The notes: generated by a model not told the origin, from the sequence alone. 64,000 nt of DNA from Desulfurispirillum indicum S5 (GCF_000177635.2 NC_014836.1:601501-665500); one strand, 5' to 3'; positions 25,417-33,147 are shown, counted from the first letter of the stretch. Numbers and translations: made by a program.

Positions 25417-26143
25417 TACCCGAGTTCTGGAAGCCCGCGGCCTGGTAAAACGCTACGGTAAACGTACCGTGGTGGACCAGGTGGATTTCCACGTCAACCA
25501 GGCTGAGGTGGTTGCCTTGCTGGGCCCCAATGGTGCCGGCAAGACGACCACCTTCTATATGACCGTTGGCCTGGTTCCGGCCGACGCCGGGTCGATATTC
25601 TTTGAAGGTCAGGATATTTCACCCCTGCCGGTGTACCGGCGCGGCCATCTGGGGCTGGCCTACCTGCCCCAGGAGCCCAGTGTCTTTCGCAAGCTCTCGG
25701 TGGAGGATAATATCTGGGCCCTGCTGGAGCTGCGTCGCGATATCAGCCTCTCCCGCAAACGCGAGATTCTGGAAGACCTGCTGCAGGAATTTCACATTAC
25801 CCACATCCGCAAATCCATGGGTTACGTCCTCAGTGGCGGAGAGCGCCGCCGGGTGGAAATTGCCCGCGCTCTGGCCCAGAATCCGAAAATGGTCCTGCTG
25901 GATGAACCCTTTGCCGGCATTGATCCCATCGCGGTGGAGGAAATCCGTACCATTATCCGGCAGCTGCAGCAACGTGGAATTGCCACTCTGATCACTGACC
26001 ACAATGTGCGCGAAACCCTGGGCACCTGTGATCGCGCCTATATTCTCTCCGACGGCAGGATTCTTGCGCAGGGCGATCCCACCACGATCACCAGTTCTCC
26101 CGCTGTGCGCCAGGCCTACCTGGGCGAAAACTACCGGGGCTGA
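25400..26143 (+). CDS. lptB: LPS export ABC transporter ATPase LptB
   Basis: A 247-residue ATPase that powers LPS extraction by LptFG. Walker A is GPNGAGKT at 42-49, the signature is VLSGGERRRVEIARAL, and Walker B is MVLLDEPFAGIDP, all typical for LptB. A TTG at 25394 could add two residues; ATG 25400 is preferred. It is followed after four bases by rpoN, the canonical lptB-rpoN arrangement. lptF and lptG are not in the window. Confidence 0.96.
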   Translation: MTVQTDTRVLEARGLVKRYGKRTVVDQVDFHVNQAEVVALLGPNGAGKTTTFYMTVGLVPADAGSIFFEGQDISPLPVYRRGHLGLAYLPQEPSVFRKLSVEDNIWALLELRRDISLSRKREILEDLLQEFHITHIRKSMGYVLSGGERRRVEIARALAQNPKMVLLDEPFAGIDPIAVEEIRTIIRQLQQRGIATLITDHNVRETLGTCDRAYILSDGRILAQGDPTTITSSPAVRQAYLGENYRG

Positions 26144-26147
26144 TGGT

Positions 26148-27551
26148 ATGCGCACAGGGATGAGCCTGGGGCAGACCCAGACACTTCAGCAATCACTGGT
26201 GATGACACCGGCCCTGCAGCAGGCCATCAAACTGCTGCAGCTCTCACGCCTGGAGCTGGAGGAGCAGATTGAAACCGAGCTGCTGGAAAACCCGGTGCTG
26301 GAAGCCGAGCCCGCTGGCAGCACTGATGAATGGGACGAGGTGCCGGCCCAGGTCTCCGAAGGGGAAAAGGAGATCAATGATTTTGAGAACTACCTGAACA
26401 GTTACGGAGAGAATTTCTCTGAAGGGGCCTCCTATGAGATCCCCGATGATGAGTATGAAACACCCATAAAAAATCGCGAGTCATTCACGGCCATGCTGCT
26501 GGGGCAGCTGGGGCTGATGAAGATCGGTGAAGAGCAGCGTGGCGCCGCGTATATTCTGGTCAACAACCTGGATGAGGATGGCTATCTGCGGGTGCCCCTT
26601 GAAGAACTGGCCAGTGAACACTATCCCGTTGCACTCCTGGAGGAGGTGCTCGTCGAGGTGGTGCAGAATCTTGAACCCCTGGGAGTTGGCAGTCGTTCCA
26701 TCAAGGAGTTTCTGCTGGTGCAGCTGGAGAACATGAGCCACCGGGAGCTGACCGCCCCCTACGATGTTGTACGGGGTATTATCGAGAAGTTCCTTGAGGA
26801 GATGGATAAAAAGGGCCTGAAGAAGATTACCCGCGTCCTGAAGTGCACGGAAGAAGAGGCCCTGGAGGCCATTGCCCTGATTCGTGACATGGAGCCGGTG
26901 CCAGCCCAGGGCTACGTGGATGACGAGAACAGTACGGTGATTCCCGATGTCTATTATGTCAAGGACAAGGATGGGCAGTTTCTGGTGCTCACCAATGACG
27001 ACGGGCTGCCCCGCCTCAACGTGAACCACAGCTACATTCAGCTGGCAAAGTCAGCTCCCGACAAGGAGAGCTATGCTTATATAGAACGCAAGTATCAGGC
27101 GGCAAAGTGGTTTATCAAGAGCATTGAGCAGCGTCAGAAGACCATACTGCGGGTTGCCCAGAGTATTCTCAAATTCCAGGGCGAATTTTTTCACCGCGGG
27201 CCCATGTATCTCAAGGGCCTGAATCTGCGTGAAGTGGCCGATGATATCGGCGTGCACGAGTCCACCGTCAGTCGGGTCACTACCAGTAAATATGCCCATA
27301 CCCCCTATGGAATTTATGAGTTGAAGTTCTTCTTCGGCAGCGGTATAAAGGGTGGTTCTCTCTCTGTCGATGTGTTGAAACACCGGCTGAGGGAGATTAT
27401 CGAAGGGGAAAATCCGCAAAAGCCCTTGAGTGATGAAAAGCTTGTGAGTATGCTGGCGGCTGAGGGCTTTGATGTGGCCCGGCGTACCGTTGCCAAGTAT
27501 CGGGCCGACCTGGGGATTCCCACGGCGTCCGCCCGCAAGAACAAGCTCTAG
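26148..27551 (+). CDS. rpoN: RNA polymerase sigma-54 factor
   Basis: A 467-residue sigma-54 that directs RNA polymerase to -24/-12 promoters and needs AAA+ activators such as the one at 21264-22592. Region I is rich in Gln and Leu (QTQTLQQSLVMTPALQQAIK); an acidic linker (about 65-105) precedes the core-binding domain; a helix-turn-helix region (DIGVHESTVSRVT) and the RpoN box ARRTVAKYR at 444-452 close the protein. I chose ATG 26148; ATG 26160 is possible. The longer frame from 26004 overlaps lptB and is rejected. Confidence 0.96.
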   Translation: MRTGMSLGQTQTLQQSLVMTPALQQAIKLLQLSRLELEEQIETELLENPVLEAEPAGSTDEWDEVPAQVSEGEKEINDFENYLNSYGENFSEGASYEIPDDEYETPIKNRESFTAMLLGQLGLMKIGEEQRGAAYILVNNLDEDGYLRVPLEELASEHYPVALLEEVLVEVVQNLEPLGVGSRSIKEFLLVQLENMSHRELTAPYDVVRGIIEKFLEEMDKKGLKKITRVLKCTEEEALEAIALIRDMEPVPAQGYVDDENSTVIPDVYYVKDKDGQFLVLTNDDGLPRLNVNHSYIQLAKSAPDKESYAYIERKYQAAKWFIKSIEQRQKTILRVAQSILKFQGEFFHRGPMYLKGLNLREVADDIGVHESTVSRVTTSKYAHTPYGIYELKFFFGSGIKGGSLSVDVLKHRLREIIEGENPQKPLSDEKLVSMLAAEGFDVARRTVAKYRADLGIPTASARKNKL

Positions 27552-28636: not shown

Positions 28637-28787
28637 ACGACTCGCCTGGTTTTGTGGTCTGCCTGGAACGAAGGTGTTGACCACAGCTCCAATGTAAACT
28701 ATTCTAAACTGCGTTTTATTCTGAAGGTTTCGTACACAAGCCCTGTCTTGTCACCTCTCTGTGTCACCTGACTGACGGAGAAAAATC

Positions 28788-29042
28788 ATGAAGCATCAGC
28801 GTTTCAGTCCCCTGGCAGAGGCCTGGATTCTCTTTTTCCTGCTGGGCGTGCTGATGATCAACTATCCCTTTACCCATATTTTCAACAAGCTCACTCTGGT
28901 GCTGGGCGTTCCCATGATGGTGCTGTACTTTCTGCTGGGATGGCCGCTGTCCATCGCGGTGATTTATTTTTTCACCCGCAGCCTCAACCATGGAGACGCA
29001 GAGTCAGCTGACCATGAAGACCGCGATCAGGGGGAGTCATGA
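28788..29042 (+). CDS. Small two-helix membrane protein, symporter small-subunit-like
   Basis: An 84-residue protein with two membrane helices (about 10-27 and 36-62) and a hydrophilic, acidic tail. Its stop overlaps the start of the SLC5-type fusion protein (ATGA), so the two are translationally coupled. Size, topology and position resemble the small proteins encoded directly before SLC5-type sensor kinases and symporters (DUF4212-like or CbrX-like). It is probably an accessory subunit stabilising the transporter domain. The family assignment is an inference from layout. Confidence 0.78.
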   Translation: MKHQRFSPLAEAWILFFLLGVLMINYPFTHIFNKLTLVLGVPMMVLYFLLGWPLSIAVIYFFTRSLNHGDAESADHEDRDQGES

Positions 29043-32000
29043 TCTCTGTGTACCTGGTCGGCCTGATCTCCCTGCTCTACTTCCTCTTCCTCTTCGCGGT
29101 GGCTTACTATGCCGATAAAATGCGTGACGCCTCCCGCAGCATTATTTCCAATGCCTATATCTACTCACTCTCCCTCGCCGTCTACCTGACATCCTGGACT
29201 TTTTACGGCAGCGTCGGGCGTGCGGCCACCACGGGGCTGGATTTTCTGCCCATCTACCTGGGGCCGACCCTGATCGCATTCAGCTGGTGGTTTCTGCTGC
29301 GTAAGATGGTGCGCATCAGCAAGGAGCAGAATATTGTCAGCATTGCGGACTTCATCTCCAGCCGCTATGGCAAGTCGGCCACCCTGGGGGCGGTGGTCAC
29401 GATCTTTGCGGTGATAGGCGTCATGCCCTACATTGCCCTGCAGCTGAAAGCCGTGGCCAATACCTTTGAATTCCTGACCTTGTCTGCCAGCGCCGTCGAA
29501 CAGGGGGTGCGTCGTCCCATCCAGGGCCTGCCGACCTACATGGATTCGGCATTGGTGGCGGCCCTGCTGCTGGCCGTGTTCAGCATGCTCTTCGGAGCCA
29601 GACGCCTGGATGCCACCGAGCGCCACGAAGGTTTGGTGGCCGCCATTGCCGTGGAGTCCATCGTCAAGCTGGTGTCCTTCCTGGTTATCGGTATCTTTGT
29701 GACCTACGGGATGTTCGGCGGCTTTGGTGATATTTTCAGCCGCTTTCTGGAAACCTTTCCGGAACGCAGCCACCTGCTTCTGCTCAATACGGAGCAGACG
29801 CCGTACGTAACGTGGTTTACCCTCACCTTTGTCTCCATGATGGCGGTGATGTTCCTGCCCCGCCAGTTCCACGCCATGGTTATCGAAAACTCCGACGAAA
29901 AACATATCAGAACGGCCATGTGGTGCTTTCCTGCCTACATGTTCCTCATCAACATCTTTGTCATCCCCATTGCCCTGGGTGGCCTGCTTCTGCAAGGGGG
30001 GGACACGGCCAATGCGGACTTTTTCGTCCTGCTGATACCCCTGCAGGAGGGCCACCCCTGGCTGGCCATGCTGGTGTTCATCGGTGGCTTTTCAGCCGCG
30101 GCCGGTATGGTCATGGTGGCGTCAGTTGCCCTTGCCACCATGATCCTGAACCATCTGCTCATGCCCCTGATCCTGCGTTTCAGAATAGACACCGCGGACA
30201 TGTCCGGTCTCCTGCTGCACATGAAGCGCCTGGGAATCGCGGTGGTGGTTCTGCTGGGCTACTTCTACTACAAGGTAATCGGTGAGACCTATGCCCTGGT
30301 GAATATCGGTCTGATCTCTTTTCTTGCGGTCACCCAGTTCGCGCCGGCAGTGATCGGAGGGCTTTTCTGGAAGCGGGGGAACCATCTGGGCGCGATGGTG
30401 GGCCTGGTTCTCGGGTTTGTTGTTTGGGCCTATACCCTGCTTATTCCCTCTTTTATCCGCTCGGGCTGGATGACGAGCACGCTGCTGGAAGAGGGCCCCT
30501 GGGGTCTCTCCTTTTTGCGTCCGCTGGAGCTCTTTGGGCTGAGTGGCTTTGATATGTGGTCGCACGCGCTTTTCTGGACCATGTTCTTCAATCTCGGAGC
30601 CTATCTGGCCCTCTCCCTGCTGACCAGCGCGTCGTCAGATGAAGAAGAACAGGCAGAGCGCTTTGTGGATGTCTTTGAGGGCAATGATCCTGCGCTGGTG
30701 ACCCGTGAGCGCATCAGTCAGGCTCCCAGTGTCCATGAGTTTCGCGATCTGATGGCCAAGTTTATCGGCGAACGTCAGGCCCATGTGGCCCTGAACCAGT
30801 ATATGAAAGAGAAGAGCCTCGCCTTGGACGAGAAACACCTGCCGGAATACGAGGTCATTGGCCTGAAGCAGTTTACGGAAAAGACCCTGGCCGGCTCTGT
30901 CGGAGCAGCGCCGGCCCGCATTATTCTGGAAAATTACCTGAGTGCCAAGGGGAGCCGTATGGAGCGGGTTTTTGATCTGTTCGGTTCGGTGACTATCAGC
31001 CGCACCACCAGTCGCGAGCAGCTCAGTGTCCTCTATGAGGTGGCGCGGGAGGTATCCAGCGGCGATGACCTCTCCAGTATACTGGATAATGTCCTTGAGC
31101 TGCTGCAGGGGCAGTTCCGCTTTGACCTGTGCGTTATCCGTATGCTGGATGAAGACAAGCAGGCGCTGGTGGTGCAGAGTCAGGTAGGGATGAGCTCGGA
31201 ACACCTGGGAAAATCCGAGCGCAATCTTAGCCTGGAAACCTATATTGGCACGGCTTTCATCACTAATGCGCCAGTGGTGGTCAACGACGCCGATACGGCA
31301 GACAAGGCCATCGCCGCTCAGCTGGCCCGCGATGAAGGCATACAGTCCTTCGCCCATGTGCCCGTGACCATGGAGGGCGAACCAGTGGGGGTTCTCTCGG
31401 CCTTTTCCCGGACATCAAAGGGGATTTTCACCAAGGAGTTCATGGAGCTCTTCCAGAATATCGCCGGCCAGATCGGGGTGGCATGGCGCAATGCCCGCCA
31501 GACGCGCAAACTTATTGAAGTCAGTGAGCAGCAGCGCGAGCTGCAGATTGCCCGGGCAATTCAGGTGGGTCTGCTGCCCGCCGAAGTGCCCGATCTCCCA
31601 GGCGTATCCCTGGCGGGAATCTGCATTCCGGCCCACCAGGTGGGGGGAGACTACTATGACTTTCTCCTGCGCGAAGAGCTGCTGGATCTTGTGGTGGCCG
31701 ATGTTTCCGGTCACAACATTGGTGCCGCCCTGGTGATGACACAGGCGCGCACCTTCATCCAGTCCCGCGCCAGGGATAACCGCCATCCGTCGGAACTACT
31801 GGCTGAGCTCAATCGCTTTCTCTACGGCGATCTGCTGAAGGCGGAGCTCTTTATCACCATGTTCTATGTGCAGTATGATTCGGCCTCGCACCGCGTCACC
31901 TATGCCAGTGCCGGTCACAATCCACCCCTGCTGTGGCGTGCAGAGACCGGGCAGTGTGAACGCCTGGATGCCGATGGCCTCATTCTGGGTATCGAGCCGG

Positions 32001-32332
32001 AAGTTTCTTTTGAAGAAGAAGAGACCTTCCTGCATCCGGGGGATGTGCTGCTGCTGTACACCGACGGCATTACCGAAGCGGAGAATCGTCAGCGGAGCTT
32101 CTTTGGCGAGGAGCGGCTGCAGGTGCTTCTGCAGGAGTACCACCATCTGAGCGCACAGCAGATCATCGATGCCCTGCTGGATCAGGTCAGGCTTTTCACC
32201 GGGAGTTTTCACTTCCGGGATGATATTTCCATGGTAGTTCTGAAGCGGGAGGCAGTATCGGGACGGGTGAAAGAAAAGCGTCCCGTGTTGGTGGCGGGTA
32301 ATGGGAAGCAGGGCTCAGGAGCTGGTGCGTGA
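29039..32332 (+). CDS. SLC5 transporter-STAC-GAF-PP2C phosphatase fusion (membrane sensor)
   Basis: A 1097-residue protein. Residues about 1-540 form a sodium:solute symporter (SLC5) domain with some 13 membrane helices. About 560-640 looks like the STAC linker seen in CbrA-type sensor kinases (block EFRDLMAKFIGERQ). About 660-805 is a GAF domain, followed by a coiled helix (QQRELQIARAIQVGLLP). About 845-1065 is a SpoIIE/RsbU PP2C phosphatase with its metal-binding blocks VGGDYYD, VADVSGH, YTDGITEA and DDISMV. Where CbrA has a histidine kinase, this protein has a phosphatase. The next two genes are its expected substrate (STAS) and the anti-sigma-type kinase. It probably senses an external nutrient via the transporter domain and dephosphorylates the STAS protein. 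Domain order is seen; ligand and output are inferred. Confidence 0.92.
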   Translation: MISVYLVGLISLLYFLFLFAVAYYADKMRDASRSIISNAYIYSLSLAVYLTSWTFYGSVGRAATTGLDFLPIYLGPTLIAFSWWFLLRKMVRISKEQNIVSIADFISSRYGKSATLGAVVTIFAVIGVMPYIALQLKAVANTFEFLTLSASAVEQGVRRPIQGLPTYMDSALVAALLLAVFSMLFGARRLDATERHEGLVAAIAVESIVKLVSFLVIGIFVTYGMFGGFGDIFSRFLETFPERSHLLLLNTEQTPYVTWFTLTFVSMMAVMFLPRQFHAMVIENSDEKHIRTAMWCFPAYMFLINIFVIPIALGGLLLQGGDTANADFFVLLIPLQEGHPWLAMLVFIGGFSAAAGMVMVASVALATMILNHLLMPLILRFRIDTADMSGLLLHMKRLGIAVVVLLGYFYYKVIGETYALVNIGLISFLAVTQFAPAVIGGLFWKRGNHLGAMVGLVLGFVVWAYTLLIPSFIRSGWMTSTLLEEGPWGLSFLRPLELFGLSGFDMWSHALFWTMFFNLGAYLALSLLTSASSDEEEQAERFVDVFEGNDPALVTRERISQAPSVHEFRDLMAKFIGERQAHVALNQYMKEKSLALDEKHLPEYEVIGLKQFTEKTLAGSVGAAPARIILENYLSAKGSRMERVFDLFGSVTISRTTSREQLSVLYEVAREVSSGDDLSSILDNVLELLQGQFRFDLCVIRMLDEDKQALVVQSQVGMSSEHLGKSERNLSLETYIGTAFITNAPVVVNDADTADKAIAAQLARDEGIQSFAHVPVTMEGEPVGVLSAFSRTSKGIFTKEFMELFQNIAGQIGVAWRNARQTRKLIEVSEQQRELQIARAIQVGLLPAEVPDLPGVSLAGICIPAHQVGGDYYDFLLREELLDLVVADVSGHNIGAALVMTQARTFIQSRARDNRHPSELLAELNRFLYGDLLKAELFITMFYVQYDSASHRVTYASAGHNPPLLWRAETGQCERLDADGLILGIEPEVSFEEEETFLHPGDVLLLYTDGITEAENRQRSFFGEERLQVLLQEYHHLSAQQIIDALLDQVRLFTGSFHFRDDISMVVLKREAVSGRVKEKRPVLVAGNGKQGSGAGA

Positions 32333-32374
32333 AGAACCGATAAGGTACCGATGCGAGAAGATAGAGGAGGGTCA

Positions 32375-32728
32375 ATGGGATTCACGGTGGAAGAACAGGA
32401 TGGCATTATCGTGGTTTGTGTTGAGGGTGAACGCCTGGATGCCCATAACAGCGTAGAGCTCAAGGAGTACCTGCAGAAGTTGCAGGAAAAAGGGCCACAG
32501 CGGGTCGTCGTCGATCTTGGCCGTGTGCAGTTTATGGATTCGTCGGGCATTGGCGCTCTGGTTGCCGGATTCAAGGGATTGCGCGCTGCCGGTGGAGACC
32601 TGCGACTGTGCTGCATTGCCTCACCGGTGGAGGCAATTTTTCAGCTCACCAGATTATATCGCGTTTTCCCGATTTATGGCGGTCGCCGTGAAGCCCTGGA
32701 GAGTTTTCGTGACAAGGAAACCACATGA
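32375..32728 (+). CDS. STAS-domain anti-sigma factor antagonist
   Basis: A 117-residue single STAS domain like SpoIIAA and RsbV. The phosphorylation site motif is MDSSGIGAL, with D55 and S57 as the equivalents of the SpoIIAA Asp and phosphoserine. ATG 32375 has AGAGGAGGGTCA before it, a strong ribosome site, so I prefer it over ATG 32351. In partner switching the unphosphorylated form binds and removes the RsbW-like protein; the upstream PP2C fusion should dephosphorylate it and the downstream kinase should phosphorylate it. Its stop overlaps the next start. Confidence 0.93.
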   Translation: MGFTVEEQDGIIVVCVEGERLDAHNSVELKEYLQKLQEKGPQRVVVDLGRVQFMDSSGIGALVAGFKGLRAAGGDLRLCCIASPVEAIFQLTRLYRVFPIYGGRREALESFRDKETT

Positions 32729-33147
32729 AGGAAAAAATTGAACTGGATATCAGTGTCCCCAATCAGACCCGCTATCTGAGCCTGATTGGCAGGATCGGCG
32801 AGGAGATCGCCCGCACCCTGGAACACTATGAGGGCGATCGGGATGAGCTGGCCTACCATATCAACCTGGTGCTGACCGAAGCCACGACGAACGCTATCCG
32901 CCATGGCAATGAGGGGAATCCTGACAAGGATGTGCATATCACCATTACTATTGCGGAAGATCTTCTGTATATCAGGGTCTATGACCATGGCCAGGGTTTT
33001 GATATCAGCACGTTGCCCGAACCGGATTTTGATTTTCTGGAAGACCATGGGCGCGGAATTTTTGTGATCCGTTCGCTGATGGATCGGGTCAGCTATCTGC
33101 CCAGCAATGGTGGTTATGTACTGGAGATGACCAAGCGGCTCCTGTGA
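32725..33147 (+). CDS. RsbW/SpoIIAB-like serine kinase (anti-sigma type)
   Basis: A 140-residue GHKL ATPase of the RsbW family. The N box is LTEATTNAIRHG, with E52 as catalytic base, N56 for magnesium and H60; the ATP lid motifs are DHGQGFD and DHGRGIFVI. Such proteins phosphorylate their STAS partner and hold a sigma factor or another target. No sigma factor gene is adjacent, so the target may be encoded elsewhere or may not be a sigma factor. It closes the three-gene partner-switching set. Confidence 0.93.
   Translation: MKEKIELDISVPNQTRYLSLIGRIGEEIARTLEHYEGDRDELAYHINLVLTEATTNAIRHGNEGNPDKDVHITITIAEDLLYIRVYDHGQGFDISTLPEPDFDFLEDHGRGIFVIRSLMDRVSYLPSNGGYVLEMTKRLL

Follow-up and report, generated by a model that had tools for sequence, protein, structure and literature searches.

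A candidate SLC5-STAC-GAF-PP2C transceptor encoded with STAS and RsbW-type partner-switching proteins in Desulfurispirillum indicum S5

Desulfurispirillum indicum S5T is anaerobic and can use pyruvate, lactate, and acetate for growth (PMC3368425). The genome of strain S5 is a single contig of 2,928,377 bases, and the window analyzed here is a stretch of 64,000 nucleotides from it (NC_014836.1:601501-665500). Four reading frames on the + strand at positions 28788-33147 of the window encode a two-helix membrane protein, an SLC5-STAC-GAF-PP2C fusion, a STAS protein, and an RsbW-type kinase; all four frames described in the first-pass annotation were recovered at these positions, together with Pfam and structure matches. 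The overlapping codons claimed for the whole operon were found at two of its three junctions, as ATGA between the small gene and the fusion gene (29039-29042) and between the STAS and RsbW genes (32725-32728), while a gap of 18 nt separates the fusion gene from the STAS gene. In D. indicum the cassette lies in a ptsN/fba context. A candidate sigma-70-like promoter (TTGACC-17-TATTCT; 28677..28705, + strand), a weak match to the consensus, was located between ptsN and the operon, and about three matches of such quality are expected by chance in the scanned region. The remark that no sigma factor is adjacent had to be qualified, as rpoN (sigma-54) is encoded three genes upstream (26004-27551); it was unlinked to the cassette in the Desulfuromonadia loci. 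Sigma-54 is not known to be a target of partner switching.

The first gene (28788..29042, + strand) encodes a membrane protein of 84 amino acids that was assigned as a CbrX-like putative accessory subunit of the SLC5 part, based on two hydrophobic segments and a family alignment with the motif G..N.P..IF...P..Y....W. Searches against Pfam and the PDB placed this protein in no family and gave weak matches only, to DUF3311 and DUF4212, both of which we take to be small partners of SLC5 carriers. Its likeness to CbrX is one of upstream position, gene overlap, and two hydrophobic segments. CbrX is a close structural precedent that the first-pass annotation had missed: it is bound to CbrA in a cryo-EM structure from 2026, and AlphaFold predictions suggest that it mediates dimer contacts (PMC13022988). 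By analogy, the small protein probably has a stabilizing effect on the SLC5 part, perhaps in dimeric form, and, like CbrX, a role in translational coupling; more speculatively, dimer contacts of the CbrX type would suit a dimeric PP2C output.

The fusion protein is 1097 amino acids long and begins with an SLC5 transporter-like domain (approximately residues 1-544; 29039..30670, + strand) followed by a STAC four-helix domain (approximately residues 565-636; 30731..30946, + strand). This SLC5-STAC part had no significant Pfam match. Residues 7-638 were aligned with the solved CbrA SLC5-STAC chain 10ed_A (E=1.7e-71), in agreement with the likeness to CbrA that had been noticed initially, and Foldseek matched the transporter-like domain to SGLT2, NIS, and SMCT1. 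Thirteen transmembrane helices are expected, as in CbrA. The AlphaFold model of the fusion (mean pLDDT 68) contained transporter helices, a four-helix STAC, a GAF domain, a long helix, and a PP2C domain. The STAC domain was assigned from this model and from alignment with the CbrA STAC region, with helices at residues 565-576, 578-591, 603-621, and 623-635, where the model is of low confidence; the published STAC motif LGPx(x)A reads VGAAPA in the fusion. Lys210, which is kept in 23 of 25 sequences, aligns with CbrA Lys196, the residue that fills the Na2 site in a protein with proton-gradient-dependent transport (PMC13022988). The aromatic pocket residues of CbrA (Y51, W55, F71, Y75, and F406) were conserved. 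Four other pocket positions differed from CbrA (A56T, C74I, F248S, and H257R), and histidine is therefore not expected as the ligand. The closest named family model for the SLC5 part was MctP, far below its cut-off; the natural ligand is probably a small carboxylate, a guess based on this weak similarity and on the diet of the organism.

The cytosolic part of the fusion begins with a GAF domain (approximately residues 677-818; 31067..31492, + strand; Pfam GAF_2, E=1.9e-18), for which Foldseek gave 42% identity to 2qyb, a GAF structure from G. sulfurreducens. In the AlphaFold model a long helix (residues 799-845; 31433..31573, + strand) joins the GAF domain to the PP2C domain and, by comparison with the linkers of RsbU/SpoIIE-type proteins, is a putative signal linker. 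The SpoIIE/RsbU-type PP2C domain (31640..32248, + strand) was matched by Pfam SpoIIE over residues 882-1070 (E=2.1e-57), and its first metal-binding Asp motif begins at residue 868. The metal-binding motifs GGDY, DVSGH, TDG, and DD were kept in all 19 aligned proteins (GGDYF being accepted for GGDYY), and the PP2C domains of RssB, Rv1364c RsbU, and SiaA were matched by Foldseek. HisKA was absent from the fusion in the Pfam search and the output is PP2C, so the protein lacks the two-component (histidine kinase) output of CbrA-type transceptors.

The third gene (32351..32728, + strand) encodes a STAS protein resembling anti-sigma antagonists (Pfam STAS, E=5.3e-22; TIGR00377 above its cut-off). 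The better start is probably the ATG at 32375, which is preceded by GGAGG and aligned with the starts of orthologs. The phospho-acceptor serine motif DSSG, present in the D. indicum protein, was found in 11 of 12 aligned STAS proteins, the exception reading DSTS (locus L129). The fourth gene (32725..33147, + strand) encodes an RsbW/SpoIIAB-type serine kinase or partner-binding protein (Pfam HATPase_c_2, E=1.1e-24). Its N-box (E52 and N56) and G-box residues were invariant in 19 sequences; the RsbW and SpoIIAB equivalog models matched it, but below their cut-offs.

A search for the SLC5-PP2C architecture in other genomes, as proposed in the first-pass annotation, recovered it in Desulfuromonadia and in the phylum of the window, Deferribacterota. 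A scan of genome contigs gave 20 loci, mostly labelled Desulfuromonadales, and in Desulfuromonadia the STAS and RsbW genes followed the fusion at every scan locus with enough downstream DNA (15/15). A sample of Desulfobacterota comprised 395 genomes, of which 78 encode SLC5-STAC relatives and 17 the PP2C form. The full cassette was present at 16 of the 17 PP2C-form loci fetched from this sample; genome G080, the source of the exception (L098), carries two copies, and STAS adjoins the other one. The remaining SLC5-STAC relatives were aligned only through GAF or STAC, and the seven that were examined carry HisKA-HATPase after the GAF domain. A protein encoded on a betaproteobacterial plasmid (Azoarcus, L195) joins SLC5-STAC to GGDEF-EAL. 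Since SLC5-STAC, with or without GAF, was found with both histidine-kinase and GGDEF-EAL outputs, the output domain is swappable.

The small gene was found upstream of the fusion in all 17 fusion-bearing Deferribacterota genomes and at all Desulfuromonadia scan loci with upstream DNA except the frame-split L020. Among the loci fetched, it preceded the PP2C forms and most kinase forms, and it was recognizable upstream of the GGDEF-EAL form and of the Cupriavidus and Paracoccus loci; the SLC5-STAC loci retrieved from S. fredii, Azospirillum, and P. aeruginosa plasmids showed no CbrX-like gene. Its occurrence upstream of PP2C, kinase, and GGDEF-EAL outputs alike assigns the small protein to the front end, and supports the view that CbrX is a real front-end subunit and not only a translational leader peptide.

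In the phylum of the window, 51 genomes were sampled, including three of the window's class; the names Chrysiogenaceae and Deferribacteres given to the relatives are inferred. The fusion was present in 17 of the 51, with STAS-RsbW next to it in only two, D. indicum and G002. In 13 other fusion-bearing genomes (Deferribacteres), STAS-RsbW forms a separate pair beside a gene for a CBS/DRTGG/DHH pyrophosphatase-like protein. A matching standalone RsbW encoded with STAS was thus found in 15/17 fusion-positive versus 0/34 fusion-negative genomes (Fisher p=4e-11 by genome, uncorrected for kinship; 0.0048 by family). Of the two fusion-positive genomes lacking such a match, G049 is a 64% complete assembly with no clear RsbW match, and G001, from the window's family, has kept the fusion and the small gene without the cassette STAS-RsbW, its sole RsbW being a different paralog; another substrate of the phosphatase is therefore possible there. 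The complete antagonist and kinase set described initially was accordingly upheld, through conservation alongside the fusion in Desulfuromonadia and through co-occurrence in the window's phylum. That the fusion might be an ordinary SLC5 transporter with an acquired phosphatase tail, having no regulatory coupling to the neighbouring STAS-RsbW, was considered very improbable: the SLC5 part of CbrA is reported to transport (PMC7918813), but conservation extends across two phyla for both the PP2C active site and the linkage of the genes, and STAS-RsbW accompanies the fusion even where the two are unlinked.

In a tree of the SLC5-STAC-GAF region, read with a midpoint root only, the three sequences of the window's family were placed inside a clade of Desulfuromonadia PP2C sequences (100/100), apart from the remainder of their own phylum. 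The flanks in Desulfuromonadia differ from the ptsN/fba context of D. indicum, and both observations indicate that the cassette was spread by horizontal transfer to Chrysiogenaceae.

From the sequences and their conservation, the four genes likely form one signalling unit, a CbrA-like transceptor in which a phosphatase replaces the histidine kinase and starts partner switching. At rest, RsbW would phosphorylate STAS and hold its own target. Upon activation of the transceptor, a signal would reach a PP2C dimer by way of STAC, GAF, and the 799-845 helix, and this dimer would dephosphorylate STAS; the dephosphorylated STAS would then bind RsbW, and the target, presumably encoded elsewhere in the genome, would be freed. 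The conformational state of SLC5 and the cytosolic GAF domain would most likely both feed in.

Direct control of the phosphatase by the transport or binding of a solute, which the first-pass annotation had suggested as possible, was not supported by the present results. The literature on CbrA and CrbS opposes transport itself as the trigger: in both proteins kinase activation is independent of transport through SLC5, and CbrA without its membrane domain still signals if overexpressed, with the cytosolic PAS domain being essential (PMC5715377, PMC6591292). The GAF domain may play the role of PAS here. These findings give SLC5 a roughly even chance of contributing to the signal and make GAF the safer sensor. 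It is not much less probable that the output is partner switching and the signal purely cytosolic, in the form of a GAF ligand, with SLC5-STAC acting as an anchor or transporting independently. The signalling of overexpressed CbrA without its membrane domain and the need for PAS agree with such a signal, as do the little effect of SLC5 swaps and STAC deletion (PMC5715377, PMC6591292) and the presence of GAF in place of PAS in the fusion. Arguing against it are the strong conservation of Lys210 and of the SLC5 pocket, the docking of STAC onto SLC5 seen in the structure of CbrA (PMC13022988), and the retention of the SLC5-STAC front end when outputs are exchanged. In the strongest form of a role for SLC5, a widespread, horizontally spread class of transceptors would let pocket occupancy act directly on a serine phosphatase and so release a global regulator, perhaps a sigma of the RpoS type; a single protein would then connect a nutrient at the membrane with the partner switch and dispense with a histidine kinase. 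This form appears unlikely.

A sigma factor had been proposed as a final target of the switch. Six sigma-70-type factors were identified in the D. indicum genome (RpoD, a group 2 sigma, FliA, and three ECF factors), and neither it nor any of five Desulfuromonadia genomes yielded a SigB/F/G-type sigma above the family cut-off, so that the proposal was not confirmed across these six genomes. The nearest model for the group 2 sigma of D. indicum (L040) was TIGR02394 rpoS, below its cut-off. To assess linkage, the sigma factors of D. indicum were compared by BLAST with 63 loci (612,915 bases in total) that hold the cassette or STAS-RsbW. No sigma was found near any of them except in genus g5, where the small-fusion operon is preceded, two genes upstream and on its own strand, by a gene for an RpoS-like sigma (L081 and L082). 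Other Deferribacterota, the fusion-negative G017 among them, carry the same pair of sigma and M24-peptidase genes apart from any fusion, and the g5 linkage is therefore treated only as a lead. The presence or absence of the sigma does not track the fusion.

Binding of RpoS by RsbW-type domains has precedent (PMC6482189), which makes the group 2 sigma the first candidate target. A metabolite-gated general stress switch acting on this RpoS-like sigma, similar to CrsR-CrsA of Shewanella or HsbR-HsbA of Pseudomonas, is a possible, if rather doubtful, reading: the binding precedent (PMC6482189), L040, and the g5 loci speak for it, but the same sigma type occurs in the fusion-negative family f7, the link to the fusion is confined to one genus, and no sigma lies near any other cassette or STAS-RsbW locus. 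Somewhat short of an even chance was given to a non-sigma target, such as a diguanylate cyclase, an anti-sigma such as FlgM, or an enzyme, as in SiaABCD-like and HsbA-like switches. This is consistent with the lack of sigma linkage in the 612,915 bases outside one genus and of a SigBFG-type sigma, with the structural resemblance of the PP2C domain to SiaA and RssB, and with the constant position of the unlinked STAS-RsbW pairs beside the pyrophosphatase-like gene; yet this divergent gene may be linked to the pairs by position alone, and no candidate is conserved beside the cassette in Desulfuromonadia. Conserved flanking genes were also considered as targets and rejected, as those of Desulfuromonadia (opp-type transporter genes, and lgt, rluD, sppA, rpsA, and ispH as read from the sequences by eye) look housekeeping and are unlike the ptsN/fba neighbours in D. 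indicum.

The unit combines features of several described systems. With CbrA/CbrX of Pseudomonas (SLC5-STAC-PAS-histidine kinase) it shares SLC5 and STAC, the overlapping upstream gene for a two-helix protein, the Na2-site Lys, and the aromatic pocket (PMC13022988), and it differs in having GAF-PP2C with STAS-RsbW in place of PAS-histidine kinase with CbrB and in pocket positions 56, 74, 248, and 257. The SLC5-STAC kinases CrbS/CrbR and RpuS/RpuR (acetate, pyruvate) have the same front end, whereas their output is a histidine kinase (hybrid in CrbS). The RsbU/SpoIIE, RsbV/SpoIIAA, and RsbW/SpoIIAB proteins of Bacillus correspond to the PP2C, STAS antagonist, and HATPase_c_2 kinase found here with motifs intact, but the present phosphatase has a transporter-type membrane domain and no linked SigB/F-type sigma. 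CrsR-CrsA and HsbR-HsbA (RpoS) and SiaA-SiaB-SiaC-SiaD are likewise Gram-negative partner switches whose targets are unlinked or non-canonical; CrsR and HsbR are response-regulator fusions, and none of CrsR, HsbR, or the Sia systems has an SLC5-STAC input. SSS-GAF-PP2C_SIG-HATPase_c proteins of Actinobacteria combine SSS and a PP2C output in one protein; a review touches on them only as a domain search result, with HATPase_c in the same polypeptide, and its passage on them describes no cassette, CbrX-like protein, or function (PMC7918813). Fusions of SLC5-STAC to histidine kinases or GGDEF are already known (PMC5715377), and the Azoarcus protein shares the front end and an upstream CbrX-like gene and differs in its cyclic-di-GMP output. 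No description of the SLC5-STAC-PP2C and STAS-RsbW cassette, its co-inheritance, or the shared small subunit was found in the open-access literature, where absence is no proof.

Transceptors such as CbrA are rare, and their transporter part may or may not inform the output; a PP2C output on the SLC5-STAC front end offers a cleaner test, as the phosphorylation of one small STAS protein is directly readable. No description of an input to partner switching was found for Desulfuromonadia, Chrysiogenaceae, or Deferribacteres in the literature searched, and the fusion is a candidate for this role in all three; nutrient sensing may act directly on a partner switch that had no previously known link to a sensor of the SLC5-STAC type. 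The GAF domains of two relatives with the full cassette (L096 and L097) are even closer to 2qyb than that of the fusion, and by this similarity Geobacter sulfurreducens probably has an ortholog.

At all 13 Deferribacterota loci with a separate STAS-RsbW pair (L119-L126 and L128-L132), a CBS/DRTGG/DHH pyrophosphatase-like gene adjoined the pair in divergent orientation. Further partner-switching genes were located on contig C1 of the D. indicum genome (G000), including a cluster at G000:C1:776131-780493 that encodes a PAS-SpoIIE phosphatase, a STAS protein and a STAS-HEAT protein, followed by what looks to be a CheR-like protein. A second standalone RsbW (G000:C1:992151-992552) adjoins a phenylacetate-CoA-ligase-like gene, an arrangement shared with G001, a genome of the same family. 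Two HATPase_c_2-receiver-SpoIIE proteins, encoded at and past the right end of the window (G000:C1:665459-667132, minus strand) and at G000:C1:1639825-1641489, are like CrsR and HsbR in domain content but differ in domain order.

In Geobacter sp. UBA698, the SLC5-STAC-GAF-PP2C fusion was broken into frames of 237 and 809 aa (L020:8001-11143) by either a frameshift or an assembly error; the small gene was not seen upstream of it. The SLC5-STAC front end was joined to GGDEF-EAL on plasmid pAZKH of Azoarcus sp. KH32C (L195:2730-6120), where the gene upstream encodes a CbrX-like protein of 64 aa.

Outside the window, short repeated units at G000:C1:994838-997172, read as the repetitive peptides SVHCRIGSSE and FLSCLCGSE, look like a CRISPR array.
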